A stretch of 9,120 nt of DNA from Candidatus Methanoperedens sp. (GTDB taxonomy: Archaea > Halobacteriota > Methanosarcinia > Methanosarcinales > Methanoperedenaceae), in NCBI GenBank assembly GCA_026552835.1, contig JAPMTY010000001.1:1-9120 (forward strand), given 5' to 3'. How positions within the stretch are numbered: position 1 is the stretch's first letter; each line of letters opens with the position of its first letter. Positions 3,869 to 8,532 of the stretch are shown here, piece after piece. A model generated the notes under the pieces. It saw nothing but the letters and a program-made list of their open reading frames with translations, did no database searches and was not told where the DNA came from. The position numbers and the translations under genes are program-made.

Positions 3869-3908
3869 AAAATGGTTATTTTTAACCATTTTCATATTTT
3901 TATTTTTT
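3869..3908 (+). terminator. Terminator-like hairpin directly after S10
   Basis: AAAATGGTTA (3869-3878) is perfectly complementary to TAACCATTTT (3883-3892) around a TTTT loop. The 10-bp stem starts on the base after the S10 stop codon. It is followed by a very T-rich tract through 3908, matching the oligo-U signal that archaeal RNA polymerase responds to. This is the most likely end of the EF-2/EF-1A/S10 transcript. Confidence 0.65.
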
Positions 3909-3915
3909 AACATTC

Positions 3916-3937
3916 ATAAAGCGACACCTCGCTTTAT
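3916..3937. repeat. Inverted repeat 1 of the intergenic palindromic element
   Basis: ATAAAGCG (3916-3923) and CGCTTTAT (3930-3937) form a perfect 8-bp stem with the loop ACACCT. The loop bases ACACC can also pair with GGTGT at 3940-3944, so two competing folds exist. It is the second of four hairpins in this gap and has no T tract of its own. The role is unknown; it may be part of a dispersed palindromic repeat. Confidence 0.6.
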
Positions 3938-3945
3938 CCGGTGTT

Positions 3946-3966
3946 CAGGTATGCTTCGCATACCTG
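3946..3966. repeat. Inverted repeat 2 of the intergenic palindromic element
   Basis: CAGGTATGC (3946-3954) and GCATACCTG (3958-3966) form a perfect 9-bp stem around the triplet TTC. It lies eight bases after inverted repeat 1. With no coding sequence across it, the perfect symmetry suggests selection or a mobile palindromic unit rather than chance. Confidence 0.6.
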
Positions 3967-3975
3967 TCGTTTGAT

Positions 3976-3994
3976 AAACCTTTCTCAAAGGTTT
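3976..3994. repeat. Inverted repeat 3 of the intergenic palindromic element
   Basis: AAACCTTT (3976-3983) and AAAGGTTT (3987-3994) form a perfect 8-bp stem with the loop CTC, followed by GTTTTA. It ends two bases before the TATA-like box of the pilin-like operon, so it could act as a last terminator or as an operator-like palindrome upstream of that promoter. Confidence 0.55.
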
Positions 3995-4026: not shown

Positions 4027-4503
4027 GTGAAAAGCGATTCAGCCCAGGTAACCATAGACTATATCACAGGCATTGGAATATTTCTTCTGGCTGTTATTTT
4101 TGTATTCCAGTTCGTATATGGTTTATTCATACCTTTCCAGTCAGGCTCGGATAAGGCGACGCTTGCCGCGGACAGGGCAGGAACCGTACTTGTTGAACGT
4201 ATGCTTCATGCAGATAAGGCAAGTGAGTTGAATGTTATAGACGAGGGAAAACTATCGAATTTTTATGTGAAATTAAAAAATAATGAAACAGATGTTCTTA
4301 AACAAATTGGACTTTTTAGCAATCAAACAGTTTTCGATCTGAATATATCTGTTGTAAATATTACATCCAATATCCTAATGAATCAAAGTGGTCCTTCGCT
4401 GCCGGATAACACAGATATCGGGCAGACTAAGCGTCTGGTATTGATTGTGAATTCTACAAACGGTAATCAAACTTATGCCATCATGTCAGTGAGGGTATGG
4501 TAA
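4027..4503 (+). CDS. Class III signal peptide (pilin-like) protein, DUF7287-like
   Basis: This 158-residue protein is probably an exported pilin-like subunit of the cell surface. The N-terminus is short and charged (MKSDSAQ), with one hydrophobic segment at about residues 13-35. The rest is a polar outer domain with seven N-X-S/T sequons and no cysteine. If prepilin peptidase cuts between Ala6 and Gln7, the mature chain begins QVTID with an acidic residue at position +5, as in type IV pilins. The D-Y-I-T-G-I-G-I-F-L-L pattern and the C-terminal VRVW resemble, from memory, DUF7287 of haloarchaea. The GTG start is chosen because no in-frame start nearer the hydrophobic segment fits, and a TATA-like box lies 27 bases upstream. 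It is the first of six coupled genes; gene 2 overlaps its stop codon. The function is not established. Confidence 0.85.
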   Translation: MKSDSAQVTIDYITGIGIFLLAVIFVFQFVYGLFIPFQSGSDKATLAADRAGTVLVERMLHADKASELNVIDEGKLSNFYVKLKNNETDVLKQIGLFSNQTVFDLNISVVNITSNILMNQSGPSLPDNTDIGQTKRLVLIVNSTNGNQTYAIMSVRVW

Positions 4504-5087
4504 TGTTCGATGATAAAGCCCAGATGCATACCCTGGAGGGCGTGGCTGCTGCTACAATAATGCTTCTTGTCATAGTGTATGCAATAGACGCAACCTCGAT
4601 GACGCCGCTTACTTCTTCAACTGCAAACGTGCATGTGGAAACCGAGCTTCAGGTGCTCGGGCAGGATATGTTAGGGGCACTGGATTATGCAGAGCCGGGA
4701 TATAATTCAAAGCTTAAGAATGATGTGCTCACGTGGAAAGGCAGTGAATATATCTGGAGCGGGACTAACTACACGGAAAAAGGCGGCACTGCGAATCTTA
4801 CCAATAACTTGACTAATATTTTAAATGCCACTTTAATCAGGCAGGGCATTGCCCATAATGTGGAATTCACTTTTCTAATTGATAATAAAGGAAATTATTC
4901 AACCGAGAGAATGATATACAACGGCGACCCCTCAGAAAACGCCGTGATAGTTTCAAGGAAAATCGTTTTGCATGATGGCGACATTAACAAGACGAAATTT
5001 CCAGGCAACCCGATAAATGATGATATAGATCCATCAACAAACCTGTATAATATCGTTGATGTTAAACTTATTTTATGGAGAATGTGA
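4503..5087 (+). CDS. Pilin-like exported protein, DUF7288-like
   Basis: The product is about 194 residues with a short N-terminus (MFDDKAQ), a hydrophobic segment at residues 13-28 and a long outer domain. The motif A-Q-M-H-T-L-E-G is followed by MTPLTSST just after the membrane segment, and the C-terminus ends LILWRM. These resemble DUF7288 of haloarchaea as I remember it. There are six N-glycosylation sequons and no cysteine. Two starts are possible. ATG 4497 leaves only about two bases after GAGGG, whereas ATG 4503 overlaps the previous stop as TAATG, has GAGGG (4491-4495) seven bases upstream, and gives an N-terminus of the same length as gene 1. I therefore chose 4503. A likely peptidase cut is Ala6/Gln7, with Glu at +6. 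It is probably a minor pilin or pseudopilin; its partners are presumably the adjacent products. Confidence 0.85.
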   Translation: MFDDKAQMHTLEGVAAATIMLLVIVYAIDATSMTPLTSSTANVHVETELQVLGQDMLGALDYAEPGYNSKLKNDVLTWKGSEYIWSGTNYTEKGGTANLTNNLTNILNATLIRQGIAHNVEFTFLIDNKGNYSTERMIYNGDPSENAVIVSRKIVLHDGDINKTKFPGNPINDDIDPSTNLYNIVDVKLILWRM

Positions 5088-5926
5088 TGGAAATAATAAA
5101 AAACGAGTCAGCTCAGTTTATGCTGCTTGCAGGTTTCATTATTGCTATCGGACTTGTAATAACCACGGTGATGCTCAATAATATTATATTTGAAAGCAAT
5201 ATGGCAGGGGAAGCGGGAGGAGACCCCATAAAATATGATATAGTGAACCTCATGCGTATCAGCGGGGATGAAATGAAAAGCGCTTACAGGAATGCAACTG
5301 CACTTGGGGGAAATGATGTACAAAAGAGAAGTAATTTTATCAATCAGACACAAAATTTCAGCGCAAACCTGCCTATGCTGTATGCTCTTCATGGGGAAGG
5401 AGTGAATGTAATCTGGGATGTGAGCAATTGGAAGAACGGTATTTATGCGAATTTCACAGATAACGGGACTGCAAATGGCGCAACGAATTGGACTGTGATG
5501 GAAAGTGTTAAAACAATGTCTGTATTTGAATTAAGAAACGTAAACGTTTCAGGCTCAAATTTCATGGTAAATGTGAGCAATCAAACAACTGGTGCATTTT
5601 TATGGTCTATGAAATTAACTGGAAGCGGTAACATAGAAATTCGTAACTATACAGCGCCTACTACTCCAACTTCTTATGGCGTAAATTATGATTATATTAA
5701 TTTAACGAATTCCACTTATAAGCTTACAACAATCATAGGGAACAACATTACTAAAATCACGTTCTTAAACGGCTCGAACGCTTGGGGCATGTTCAACCTC
5801 ACAGGCACTACCTCTTACGGCAATAGTTTCACCCGCGCCCGCGATTACATCCTTTACTCAACAGTAACCCTTTCCACCAGCCTTATGCGCACCAATATCA
5901 CGATTCCGGTTTCAGTGCCGTGGTGA
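5087..5926 (+). CDS. Pilin-like exported protein, heavily N-glycosylation-prone, DUF7261-like
   Basis: The product is about 279 residues. The N-terminus MEIIKNESAQ precedes a hydrophobic segment at residues 11-31, then a large polar domain. Sixteen N-X-S/T sequons are spread along the outer domain, the densest of the cluster, and there is no cysteine. The A-Q-F-M-L-L start of the membrane segment and the N-N-I-I-F-E that follows it recall DUF7261 of haloarchaea, a tentative match. The start at 5087 overlaps the previous stop as TGATG and has GGAG at 5077-5080, six bases away. An ATG at 5075 is in frame but lies directly before that GGAG, so it is less likely. No acidic residue occurs at +5 of the predicted mature protein, unlike gene 1. 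The function is unknown; a surface filament or scaffold component is inferred from context. Confidence 0.82.
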   Translation: MEIIKNESAQFMLLAGFIIAIGLVITTVMLNNIIFESNMAGEAGGDPIKYDIVNLMRISGDEMKSAYRNATALGGNDVQKRSNFINQTQNFSANLPMLYALHGEGVNVIWDVSNWKNGIYANFTDNGTANGATNWTVMESVKTMSVFELRNVNVSGSNFMVNVSNQTTGAFLWSMKLTGSGNIEIRNYTAPTTPTSYGVNYDYINLTNSTYKLTTIIGNNITKITFLNGSNAWGMFNLTGTTSYGNSFTRARDYILYSTVTLSTSLMRTNITIPVSVPW

Positions 5927-5930
5927 ACCT

Positions 5931-6398
5931 ATGAATCCAAAAAATCTCCTGAAAAATGAGGATGCGGTGTCCATTACACTAGGTTTCATTCTCATATTAT
6001 TTATTACAGTGCTGGTTTTCTCTGCAACCATTCTTTCTTTTTATACGCTCACGCTGAACTCCCAGCAAGCGGTAATGAGGGAAAGTTTTGATATCCTGGG
6101 AAGCGGATTTGCAGCACGGGTGACTTCAATGGATACCCTCGTAAATATAACAAAATCAAACGGGGGCGCTGTAAACCAACTGGAATATGACTTTTCAATT
6201 CCGGCTTCCATTGCAAACGAGGAATATGGCATCAATATAACCAGGGAAAGGATATTCCTGGATGCGGAAAATGGTGCGGAAGCCTGGATACCTTTCAATT
6301 CTTCCTATAATATAACTGAGCAGATATACAGCAATGCGCAGGACTATGCACTGAGCTATGATAATAATACAAATTCAATGATAATAGAACAGCAATGA
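5931..6398 (+). CDS. Pilin-like exported protein with AVS motif, DUF7266-like
   Basis: This 155-residue protein has the N-terminus MNPKNLLKNEDAVS, then a hydrophobic segment at about residues 15-37 and an outer domain with five sequons and no cysteine. The E-D-A-V-S run before the membrane segment is the pattern of archaeal type IV pilin N-domains (AVSP-type), here without the proline. The outer domain is predicted mostly beta and resembles DUF7266 by my recollection. The ATG lies four bases after the previous stop, with GGTGA at 5922-5926 as ribosome binding site. Its own stop overlaps the next start (ATGA). It is the first of three consecutive A-[V/A]-S class proteins. It could be a minor pilin; no enzyme motif is seen. 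Confidence 0.82.
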   Translation: MNPKNLLKNEDAVSITLGFILILFITVLVFSATILSFYTLTLNSQQAVMRESFDILGSGFAARVTSMDTLVNITKSNGGAVNQLEYDFSIPASIANEEYGINITRERIFLDAENGAEAWIPFNSSYNITEQIYSNAQDYALSYDNNTNSMIIEQQ

Positions 6399-7156
6399 AA
6401 TCCATTAAACTTCTTTCCTCGGAAGATGCAGTCTCTGAAGTAGTGGACTTTGTAACAATCCTCGGGTTACTGGTGTTATCTATCGGAATTATAGGAGTGG
6501 CAGGCTACCCGATAATAAAGAATGCGCAGGAGGCAAACCACATAGAAAATACCAAGCAGAGTTTTATCGTGCTGGCAAATAACGTCAATAAAGTTGTAAT
6601 TGGGCAAGCGCCTTCACAAAGCGTTGAACTAAAGATGTACGGCGGGTCGCTGAGTGTCACGGGAAGTAGCACAATAAATATTACAGCAAATAATTCAGCA
6701 GGTCTAAGAATACCTATTTTAAATGACACGCGAATGCGCAGTATTGAAAGTGTTGTAGGGGAAACTGTCGTAGCTTATGAAGGCACAGGGGTATGGGCTA
6801 AGTATCCAAACGGCAATACAATACTTGTTTCAAAGCCGCTTATTACTAACCAGAGCAATGTGCTCGTTATTCCTATCGTAACCATAGGAGGGAGTTCATC
6901 CACGGGCGGCAGCGGCATGAGCAGGGTTACGGTTAAAGGTGTGCCAATTGTTACTTTTTATAGCAATGTGAGCGATATAATAGTAACTATCAATAGCAGC
7001 TATTCAAAGGGGTGGGAGAACTATGTAAACAGTGTGATGTCATGGAATTTCTGTATTTCAGGCGTGTCATCAGGAGAGTGCACCGGACCACTTAACACGG
7101 CAAAGAATATAGATATATATATATTGAATATCCAATTGGAAACTGAGGTTGTATGA
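6395..7156 (+). CDS. Pilin-like exported protein, DUF7289-like, paralogue of the next gene
   Basis: This 253-residue protein starts MKSIKLLSSEDAVSEVVDF and has a hydrophobic segment at residues 19-37. The outer domain carries GGSL, then VAYEGTGVWAKYP at residues 126-138, then a Gly/Ser-rich stretch near GGSSSTGGSG. These features recur in order in the following gene, so the two arose by duplication. I recall the same V-A-Y-E-x-x-G-V-W signature in DUF7289 proteins of Methanosarcina. Six N-glycosylation sequons are present. The only cysteines are Cys220 and Cys229, nine residues apart near the C-terminus, suitable for an extracellular disulfide. The ATG overlaps the stop of the gene before (ATGA), and no clear Shine-Dalgarno motif is seen, so translation is probably coupled. 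Its biochemical role is unknown. Confidence 0.83.
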   Translation: MKSIKLLSSEDAVSEVVDFVTILGLLVLSIGIIGVAGYPIIKNAQEANHIENTKQSFIVLANNVNKVVIGQAPSQSVELKMYGGSLSVTGSSTINITANNSAGLRIPILNDTRMRSIESVVGETVVAYEGTGVWAKYPNGNTILVSKPLITNQSNVLVIPIVTIGGSSSTGGSGMSRVTVKGVPIVTFYSNVSDIIVTINSSYSKGWENYVNSVMSWNFCISGVSSGECTGPLNTAKNIDIYILNIQLETEVV

Positions 7157-8532
7157 AGCTTCTAAGCTCAGAAACTGCAGCTTCTGAAGTCATAGGTCAT
7201 CTCCTTATCCTGTTTATCACTATTCTCGGAGTTGGCATGATAACCCTGTACGGCGTGCCTGCGATTTACAGTCTTGAGGATATGGCAAATTCCAAGAATT
7301 CGGAACAGGCGTTTACAGTCCTTGACTCAAGGGCGAGCAGGGTAACGCTGGGTGAGTCGCCGCTTCAGGTAACAAATATCAATCTTGGCGGAGGCACCCT
7401 GACGGTTGAGCCGAACACAAGTTTCATGGTTGTAAATAGCAGTAATTTTAATGTCAATATATCTATGGGAAGGGTAAAATATACTCTTGGGGACAGGATA
7501 GTAGCTTATGAGGGTGGCGGGGTATGGGCGCAATATCCGGGCGGGGGCACTGTTATGCTTTCTCCTCCCGAATTCCATTATAACGGCTGGACGCTAACAC
7601 TTCCTGTAATTAATATAAACGGCAGTGCGTCTGTTGGGGGTAAGGGGACTGCGGTAATTTCTTTCAAGAAAGTAGCAACAATAATACAGTATCCCAATGC
7701 AAGTTTCGCAGGGAGGACGAATCCTGTAGACACAGCTGCAGGAAAAGTTTATGTGAATATAACGAGCGACTACTATCTTGCATGGGCTGATTATGCCAGA
7801 AGCCTTGGATATACAAAAGTCAATACTAATTCTATAACTCATAATGCGAATATAGAACTTACTGTTGTGCCTTCCAATCTGGGAAAAAATATGCCTATGA
7901 GCTTTCCCCAAACTTATAGGGGGATTAATTCAAGCAATCAAACGCCTCTGGATAATTATAGCTTTAAAATAAAACCGGATCATAATAATTTAAAATGGGA
8001 TATCCGTGCAAAATCCGGAAACAAAACAATAATATTTTACTTTAGTGGACCTAGTAAGACCTCTGAAGACGCACTTACCCTACAAATTGGTTATCAGGAT
8101 GGCGCTGGGACTCAGGCCGAAACTTGGGAGGGAACAAATATGTTTACGTTACAAGGAGGCTCCTTTAGCATAGATCTGCTGAACAAAAGTAAAACATTAA
8201 TCTACAAAGACGTTGCTAATATTGGTGCTGATAACGCCAATACGTGCAGACTTTATGGAGATAGGTTCAGCGGCACTGTAGAGCCGGATTTTTCTTGGGA
8301 CGATATTATCATAAATAAAACTAATTCTAATAAAACCCAATCCCTCTATAACATAACACAGCACTATTTTTGGAAAATGGCGCAAGAAGGAGATATCACC
8401 TTCGGTGACTGTGCCGCTGGAGGCAATCAGCCAGAGGAAGATGAATCATCTATGCTTATCGATTACATCCCTTCAAGTGCTTTGAATTACCTGCACATCA
8501 CGGAGAACAGGGCTGATGTGGGGATAAGCTGA
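7153..8532 (+). CDS. Long pilin-like exported protein, DUF7289-like with C-terminal extension
   Basis: This 459-residue protein is the largest and last of the cluster. The N-terminus MKLLSSETAASEV leads to a hydrophobic segment at residues 13-33. The core to about residue 239 is paralogous to the preceding protein: GGGTLTV, VAYEGGGVWAQYP at 117-129, a GGKG stretch and a closing IELTV strand. Residues 240-459 form an extra domain with no counterpart there and no family I recognise. It is polar, ends in an acidic QPEEDESS stretch and holds the only two cysteines, Cys365 and Cys420. Fourteen sequons occur overall and no C-terminal membrane anchor is visible. The start overlaps the previous stop (ATGA), with GAGG four bases upstream. 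Being long and last, it could be a tip or cap subunit, which is inference only. Confidence 0.84.
   Translation: MKLLSSETAASEVIGHLLILFITILGVGMITLYGVPAIYSLEDMANSKNSEQAFTVLDSRASRVTLGESPLQVTNINLGGGTLTVEPNTSFMVVNSSNFNVNISMGRVKYTLGDRIVAYEGGGVWAQYPGGGTVMLSPPEFHYNGWTLTLPVININGSASVGGKGTAVISFKKVATIIQYPNASFAGRTNPVDTAAGKVYVNITSDYYLAWADYARSLGYTKVNTNSITHNANIELTVVPSNLGKNMPMSFPQTYRGINSSNQTPLDNYSFKIKPDHNNLKWDIRAKSGNKTIIFYFSGPSKTSEDALTLQIGYQDGAGTQAETWEGTNMFTLQGGSFSIDLLNKSKTLIYKDVANIGADNANTCRLYGDRFSGTVEPDFSWDDIIINKTNSNKTQSLYNITQHYFWKMAQEGDITFGDCAAGGNQPEEDESSMLIDYIPSSALNYLHITENRADVGIS

Follow-up and report, generated by a model that had tools for sequence, protein, structure and literature searches.

What six adjacent genes for pilin-like proteins do in a methane-consuming archaeon that keeps them among translation genes is the question raised by the DNA analysed here, 9,120 nucleotides (nt) of Candidatus Methanoperedens sp. 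(contig JAPMTY010000001.1, assembly GCA_026552835.1), called the window below. The observation of a six-gene pilin-like operon (genes 1 to 6; Table 1) was confirmed. The archaeal type IV pilus is a machine known in outline, and the pilin set found here is well conserved, with no role assigned to it. That the six genes are a pilin set is hardly in doubt. The explanation considered best overall, and probable, is that they supply the pilins of a euryarchaeal type IV pilus, priming and tipping a PilA filament. This reading is based on pilin-type N-termini, a fixed gene order and, in some relatives, linkage to PilB and PilC, all taken from sequence.

N-termini, families and grouping

Each product has a short leader, an Ala before the predicted prepilin cut and then a hydrophobic helix. 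The N-terminal motifs quoted in an earlier note on this DNA are all present in the window open reading frames (ORFs; MKSDSAQ, FDDKAQ, KNESAQ, NEDAVS, SEDAVS and SSETAAS). The family alignments were subsets chosen by score and length: 57 rows for gene 1 (56 of 71 candidates plus the window protein), 69 for gene 2 (all 68 plus the window), 57 for gene 3 (56 of 62 plus the window), 59 for gene 4 (all 58 under 260 amino acids (aa) plus the window, long vWA forms being excluded), 66 for gene 5 (65 of 80 plus the window) and 39 for gene 6, out of 120 listed homologues. Position -1 was Gly, Ala or Ser in 53/54, 68/68, 57/57, 58/58, 66/66 and 38/38 non-gap rows of genes 1 to 6, a sum of 340/341, directly before the single hydrophobic helix. 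Gln occupied +1 in 39/56, 65/68 and 57/57 rows of genes 1 to 3 and Val in 48/58 and 61/66 rows of genes 4 and 5; gene 6 was variable (Glu 14, Val 13, Ala 9 and Asp 2 among 38). By these alignments the six products carry type IV prepilin-type N-termini. The cut-site conservation and the N-terminal helices bear out the pilin-like nature claimed earlier, and a long N-terminal helix, as foreseen there, was predicted in both structure models made (genes 2 and 5).

The register of the first acidic residue depended on the family. Asp+5 was found in 56/56 rows of gene 1 and Glu+6 in 69/69 rows of gene 2; gene 3 had no acid from +1 to +7 (57/57 rows), gene 4 had one at +6 in 24/58 rows, and genes 5 and 6 had one at +3, mostly Glu, in 57/66 and 37/38 rows. 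Glu5 of a bacterial pilin pairs with the N-terminus of the subunit that follows, and the subunit capping the bacterial tip complex is without this residue (PMC10191384). An acid at +5 is described for only a subset of archaeal pilins (PMC4371748).

A Trp lay within the last five residues in 72/73 gene 1 and 73/73 gene 2 proteins, and in 11/71, 2/70 and 4/116 proteins of gene 3, gene 4 and genes 5/6, respectively; outside Methanoperedens gene 3 mostly had none. The C-terminal Trp codons of window genes 1 and 2 underlie a possible start of the next gene (A-TGG, within 4497-4503 and 5075-5087). This arrangement recurs in relatives, with ATG or GTG over the TGG in 125/145 Trp-bearing genes; in 37 + 52 cases this possible start shared the reading frame of the following ORF. 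The possibility that the Trp is a by-product of the overlap was rejected, and a constraint on the protein is the better reading, because the Trp was kept in 31/32 cases without an overlapping next ORF or a following pilin gene.

Pfam searches gave DUF7287 for gene 1 (1.9e-31), DUF7288 for gene 2 (3.7e-47), DUF7266 for gene 4 (2.4e-9) and DUF7289 for genes 5 (1.6e-25) and 6 (3.7e-27), the last also matching DUF7308 (6.6e-17). The families named in the earlier note were thus confirmed for five proteins. For gene 3, DUF7261 was matched at 0.031, below the Pfam cut-off; this family is assigned to some close gene 3 homologues, and 42/57 aligned gene 3 proteins matched it at E <= 0.5. An NCBIfam scan of the six window proteins gave nothing near a cut-off. 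A literature search on DUF7287, DUF7288, DUF7261, DUF7266 and DUF7289 met no paper naming any of them, in keeping with the earlier statement that no assigned function was known.

Pilin_N was matched at E <= 1e-3 by 5/59 gene 4 and 7/66 gene 5 proteins, and precomputed matches were present on two among 120 listed gene 6 homologues. A scan of gene 6 proteins (7/39 at E <= 0.01) is not used as evidence because the set included two homologues already known to carry Pilin_N. When the profiles of genes 4 and 5 were run against PDB sequences, the first match was the archaeal pilin 8fj5 (1.4e-4 and only 0.011, respectively). By these matches genes 4 to 6 appear to be relatives of PilA (Pilin_N). Family scans of genes 1 to 3 gave no pilin among the families shown, save Arch_flagellin at 0.12 for one gene 2 member. 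Weak matches were to DUF7262 (gene 2 proteins) and DUF7285 (gene 1 proteins). A possible kinship of genes 1 and 2 to TadE/TadF was not confirmed by the scans: neither family was among the 25 that gene 1 matched or among the first 25 of the 34 that gene 2 matched.

Profile comparisons covered three pairs. Gene 1 matched gene 2 with a probability of 95.5 over 41 N-terminal columns and gene 5 matched gene 4 with 96.9 over 64 columns, values to which the composition of short hydrophobic stretches may contribute; genes 2 and 4 were not joined (14.6). The division into two classes put forward earlier holds at the first mature residue; N-terminal acids, C-terminal Trp and profile comparisons instead suggest three groups, genes 1 and 2, gene 3, and genes 4 to 6.

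Gene order and the link to PilB and PilC

DUF7288 was matched in 97/148 Halobacteriota genomes (94 above cut-off); Haloferax volcanii was the only one of 14 control genomes with a match. The window proteins served as seeds for local profiles, which were run on 68 loci, 67 of them with a gene 2 match. These loci were 59 regions selected through DUF7288 matches, seven contigs from genomes, the window itself and the ATPase locus L113. The 60 regions originally chosen cover 56 of the 97 matching genomes, the remaining 41, of all match strengths, being left out; 59 were counted (L097 gave no local match; L051 duplicates L006). The order 1-2-3-4-5 was found in 62/73 module copies, 35 of them with a second DUF7289 gene, so the earlier idea of an ordered module shared with haloarchaea stands. 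Four copies read 5-4-1-2-3 and three 3-4-5-1-2. Single deviating copies were L042 (without a gene 3 match), L048 (cut by the region end) and L094 and L113 (otherwise incomplete). Median gaps between successive genes were -7, -13, -10 and -4 nt, the overlaps being upper estimates because ORFs were taken from the first possible start. Genes 1 to 4 occur once each per set in the 62 canonical copies, and the whole set is tandemly repeated in L046, L048, L049 and L055, which suits a set working as one unit.

Among 125 genomes with a best T2SSE match stronger than 1e-10 were 96 of the 97 DUF7288 genomes; one was among the 23 with a weaker match or none (Fisher p 2.9e-11, uncorrected for relatedness, with the 1e-10 line set after viewing the list). 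A T2SSE-like ORF was present in 13/59 DUF7288-chosen regions and absent from 46/59; in L041-L044 and L065 it lay in one line with the module, and elsewhere it diverged from the module or faced it. Pfam confirmed T2SSE and T2SSF neighbours in L041 and L113, where the ATPases have PilB3-like C-terminal domains. L113, from the METP1 genome, holds a second module, which forms one run with an ATPase and T2SSF; T2SSE/T2SSF linkage was seen also in L129. On plasmid pHME505 of Haloferax mediterranei, T2SSE (an unlisted ORF), T2SSF, DUF7287, DUF7288, DUF7261, DUF7266, DUF7289 and Pilin_N lie in this order on one strand, and the five DUF genes are annotated as hypothetical in the public record. Pilin_N genes outside the module were found in 7/7 genomes searched.

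The earlier note had expected an undescribed surface or secretion apparatus. This part is not upheld, because the module is linked to PilB/PilC in some relatives and fits euryarchaeal pili described by arCOG number in 2016 (Makarova et al., 2016; PMC4858521). Another reading is a short pseudopilus with no long filament, which in Methanoperedens would work as a piston or docking device in secretion, in DNA uptake or in extracellular electron transfer. Several unlike pilins per operon do resemble pseudopilin sets (PMC10191384), and the neighbours in the window (elongation factors, S10, L11) include no separate major pilin. We consider it improbable given the Pilin_N genes outside the module in all seven genomes searched and the one after the module in H. 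mediterranei; neither a substrate nor an outer gate was seen in the window, and the H. volcanii PilB1-C1 system, with pilins of related families, acts in adhesion (PMC6491452).

A partner ATPase was sought using the close relatives G001-G003. In three Methanoperedens-type genomes (L100, L105 and L110; 15-20 kb seen) a T2SSE/T2SSF pair without pilins has a MinD-like gene upstream; the Pfam check covered L100 among these. Among 148 genomes, 30 have an ATPase closely homologous to that of L100 (E <= 1e-200): 18/29 with DUF7308 versus 12/119 without (p 1.7e-8), and 28/97 with DUF7288 versus 2/51 without (p 1.8e-4). This L100-type ATPase (58-62% identity) adjoins a full module in G009 and G055 and a partial module in G029 (contig end) and G068; in G138, G044, G147 and G005 no pilins accompany it, which is also the case in Methanoperedens. 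Because of this co-occurrence and adjacency, the L100-type PilB3-like/PilC pair is the best candidate for the partner of the six pilins in Methanoperedens.

Other candidates were discarded: the archaellum ATPase (L101, L106, L111) was set aside, the pilin-less pair L103/L114 matched T2SSE without a PilB3-like domain (L103, E <= 1e-3) and shared only 26% identity with L100, and the matches in L104 and L115 (E about 1e-8) were ORFs resembling PIN-domain ATPases by eye. Three Methanoperedens-type genomes each carry a further ATPase/PilC-like pair with one large DUF7289-like pilin behind it (L102, L107 and L112), perhaps a minimal second pilus system. By eye, a stand-alone PilB3-like/PilC pair lies beside pheT-like and RNase HII-like genes in four genomes (L118-L121).

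Outer domains and surroundings of the operon

Structure models were made for two of the six proteins. The gene 2 model (predicted local distance difference test score, pLDDT, 90.8) has helices at 6-34 and 38-63 followed by an alpha/beta domain; that of gene 5 (pLDDT 91.5) has a 55-residue N-terminal helix (14-68) followed by an all-beta outer domain. N-glycosylation sequons exceeded the shuffle expectation in gene 1 (7 versus 2.0), gene 3 (16 versus 6.5, all 16 counted after residue 40) and gene 6 (14 versus 6.5), less so in gene 2 (6 versus 2.4) and gene 4 (5 versus 2.1), and not in gene 5. Such an excess would fit surface proteins.

In 11 other genomes the gene 4 slot holds a protein of 766-968 aa with a DxSxS MIDAS-type metal-site motif (Table 1), and in L061 a gene 3 slot protein has the motif, giving a size range of 757-968 aa with the gene 4 forms. 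When 13 long proteins (11 from slot 4, two from slot 3) were scanned, VWA_2 was matched by 11, VWA by eight, DUF7266 by six and DUF7261 by two; some long MIDAS-type proteins also bear PKD repeats. For the vWA pilin PilB of Streptococcus, modelling permits a location at the pilus tip only (PMC8179133). Separately, a gene 3 (DUF7261) protein at L044:8189-9535 has a terminal bactofilin domain (2.2e-9), a polymer-forming fold, on its pilin-like stem.

These long forms bear on the possibility that the six are subunits of the filament body, with gene 4 (or 5) as a dedicated major pilin, the others co-polymerizing and PilA not needed. This is near the PilB4 model of Makarova et al. (2016), who propose a dedicated PilA-related major pilin (arCOG03926) with the other pilins possibly all structural (PMC4858521), and genes 4 to 6 are indeed PilA-like. 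The vWA-featured proteins of 766-968 aa in the gene 4 slot of 11 other genomes do not, however, look like a helical major subunit; in H. mediterranei the module is followed by PilA itself, and genes 1 to 4 are single per set in the 62 canonical copies. We regard this arrangement as unlikely.

A further alternative treats the products as ordinary surface proteins held by Sec signal anchors, unrelated to pili and merely co-transcribed. Uncharged -2 residues in three of six proteins, the sequon-rich exteriors of genes 1, 3 and 6, and the lack of PilB/PilC adjacency in the window's lineage would agree with it. It is nevertheless highly improbable in the face of the -1 residue (Gly, Ala or Ser in all rows save one), the T2SSE/T2SSF linkage in some relatives, the T2SSE co-occurrence and the Pilin_N matches.

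Coordinates are collected in Table 1. Four of the five junctions among the six ORFs overlap, by 7, 13, 4 and 4 nt, and genes 3 and 4 are separated by 4 nt. The later start of gene 2 is preferred because the gene 2 ORFs of L001-L004 and L007 start at the matching codon.

Table 1. Coordinates of the operon genes and associated features (window numbering; predicted cuts lie between the two residues separated by the bar in the motif)
Feature	Position	Strand	Product and start	Predicted prepilin cut and conserved codons
Gene 1, DUF7287 pilin-like	4027..4503	+	158 aa, GTG start	4044/4045 (KSDSA|QVTIDY); Asp+5 codon 4057-4059; C-terminal Trp codon 4498-4500
Gene 2, DUF7288 pilin-like	4497..5087	+	196 aa; later ATG at 4503 likelier start	4520/4521 (DDKA|QMHTLE); Glu+6 codon 4536-4538; conserved Trp codon 5076-5078
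Gene 3, remote DUF7261 pilin-like	5075..5926	+	283 aa; later ATG at 5087 likelier start	5113/5114 (NESA|QFMLLAG); Gln+1 invariant in 57 aligned rows
Gene 4, DUF7266, PilA-like (Pilin_N-related)	5931..6398	+	155 aa	5966/5967 (NEDA|VSITLG)
Gene 5, DUF7289, PilA-like	6395..7156	+	253 aa	6430/6431 (SEDA|VSEVVD); Glu+3 codon 6437-6439
Gene 6, DUF7289 + DUF7308, PilA-like	7153..8532	+	459 aa	7179/7180 (SETA|ASEVIG); Glu+3 codon 7186-7188
Four tandem perfect hairpins, spacer rpsJ-gene 1	3869..3994	+	arms 10, 9, 9 and 8 nt	
Long gene 4 slot forms (other loci)	L065, L067-L072, L075, L077, L080, L083			

In the window, EF-2, EF-1 alpha and S10 (rpsJ) come first, then the six pilin-like genes and, on the opposite strand, ribosomal L11. 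The nearest locus has gene 2 at 84% identity, and the named protein relatives among the matches listed are nearly all from Methanoperedens or Methanosarcinales. Candidatus Methanoperedens contigs show the same surroundings, with S10 and L11 flanking the six-gene set in L001, L006 and L007; in L001 further genes intervene before L11. Among the loci searched, relatives of EF-2, EF-1 alpha, S10 or L11 occurred only in L001-L007 and L051, so this placement of the module looks specific to Methanoperedens. In L001 (14958-18723) several small genes lie between gene 6 and L11, some resembling PIN-domain toxin-antitoxin genes by eye.

The spacer upstream of gene 1 has an RNA fold z of -7.4, with 0/200 shuffles equally stable, and gave no Rfam match at the gathering cut-off. 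Its second hairpin is identical in L002 and L003, and by eye L003 has a different perfect 10-nt hairpin near the position of the third. The hairpins are possibly a leader or terminator structure and may or may not belong to the operon.

Proposed role and known systems

In the mechanism we propose, each product would be inserted by Sec through its N-terminal hydrophobic helix, which would stay on the mature protein, and would be cut just before that helix by a PibD-type prepilin peptidase, as the sites suggest. The six mature pilins may then assemble into one fixed membrane hetero-complex, which a PilB-type ATPase seated on a PilC-type platform would push outward. The best candidate driver in Methanoperedens is the pair beside the MinD-like gene (L100, L105, L110). 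The complex would prime and tip a filament with a body of PilA (Pilin_N) subunits whose genes lie elsewhere. Genes 1 and 2 would form the conserved core pair, gene 3, with no N-terminal acid seen, is a candidate cap, and genes 4 to 6 may carry outward binding domains. From the features described above we infer the hetero-complex, its position at the pilus tip, the partner pair and a use in adhesion. For the specific role as the priming or tip complex of a PilA pilus, which is also the likening to pilus-initiating minor pilins made earlier, we see about an even chance.

Several points weigh against this role. The operon in the window's lineage sits between rpsJ and L11 and not beside PilB/PilC. 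A charged -2 residue, called critical for the archaeal prepilin peptidase (PMC4371748), is present in just three of the six window proteins (Lys, Asp, Asp; the others have Ser, Ser and Thr) and in 29/54, 51/68, 38/57, 35/58, 55/66 and 25/38 relatives of genes 1 to 6. Peptidase_A24 was not found in one of eight genomes (METP1). The profiles of genes 1 to 3 found no pilin among PDB sequences. Searches with the gene 2 and gene 5 outer domains in Foldseek and VIA-align listed nothing clearly related, a result that proves neither a new fold nor non-kinship. Archaeal PilA, as in H. mediterranei, also has no N-terminal acid, so that the lack of one in gene 3 argues only weakly for a cap. Neither the window nor any other Methanoperedens locus examined has a long vWA form of gene 4. 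The associations of the L100-type ATPase with DUF7308 and DUF7288 are uncorrected for kinship, and the ATPase tree (26 rows), used for no claim, leaves the main forks open and the partner unsettled; the PilB-like pair with a DUF7289-like pilin (L102, L107, L112) is a possible alternative partner. A PilB4-type set is argued to have its own major pilin and to be unlikely to need PilA (PMC4858521), and a PilB4 structure of two large pilins was proposed in a 2015 review (PMC4371748).

If the proposed role is correct, genes annotated as hypothetical in H. mediterranei would turn into a defined part of a machine, one that can be deleted in haloarchaea amenable to genetics. As an archaeon that lives in aggregates, Methanoperedens would then gain a named candidate for an attachment organelle. 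A wider generalization is put forward tentatively and with more doubt than the role itself: these five to six families may be the priming/tip complex of euryarchaeal PilA pili, with acid registers (+5, +6, none, variable, +3) addressing the subunits, genes 1 and 2 an obligate core joined through C-terminal Trp strands, slots 3, 4 and 6 swapping adhesion modules such as vWA, and no detectable kinship to the bacterial tip complex. In the titles and abstract openings seen on the start and tip of archaeal type IV pili, no archaeal tip complex was named.

The bacterial PilHIJK/GspHIJK tip complexes are likewise small fixed sets of unlike pilins encoded together, one subunit being without an N-terminal acid (PMC10191384); here gene 3 had no such acid, and gene 4 had one in 24/58 rows. 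The six-gene set differs in placing its acids at +3, +5 or +6 by family, and its location at the tip is a proposal; no match to H, I, J or K subunits was listed by sequence (profiles of genes 1 to 3) or by fold (genes 2 and 5). Streptococcus sanguinis PilB has a vWA module with a metal site on a pilin (PMC8179133), as do the long gene 4 proteins elsewhere, but belongs to another pilin family and domain of life, and window gene 4 is short, without vWA. In the H. volcanii PilB1-C1 operon (clade 4C) clade-2 type pilins lie beside an ATPase, here of another clade, and loss of the system lowers adhesion (PMC6491452); that its pilins are DUF7262 and DUF7285 is a guess.

Also close are the euryarchaeal clade-2 PilB3/PilB4 pili, in which several FlaFind-type pilins stand next to ATPase/TadC; these systems also include a MinD-like ATPase and ATPase/TadC loci that have no pilins, as in L100 (PMC4858521). 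Expression of PilB4 is reported (PMC12542753, PMC7305310), and the pilus-like structure was proposed without a tested function (PMC4371748). Makarova et al. (2016) list the pilins by arCOG, describe a minor pilin of 250-550 aa that euryarchaeal systems share and leave the roles of the other pilins unclear (PMC4858521). Their duplicating minor pilin of that size, arCOG02911, fits genes 5 and 6, and the PilA-related arCOG03926 may be gene 4, equivalences inferred from size and behaviour. They treat vWA proteins as regulators and mention bacterial TadG; fixed acids, the C-terminal Trp and vWA-bearing pilins are not reported in the parts of that paper covered. Noted here are the family-fixed N-terminal acids, the near-universal Trp of genes 1 and 2, the vWA domain on gene 4 elsewhere and a likely partner ATPase.

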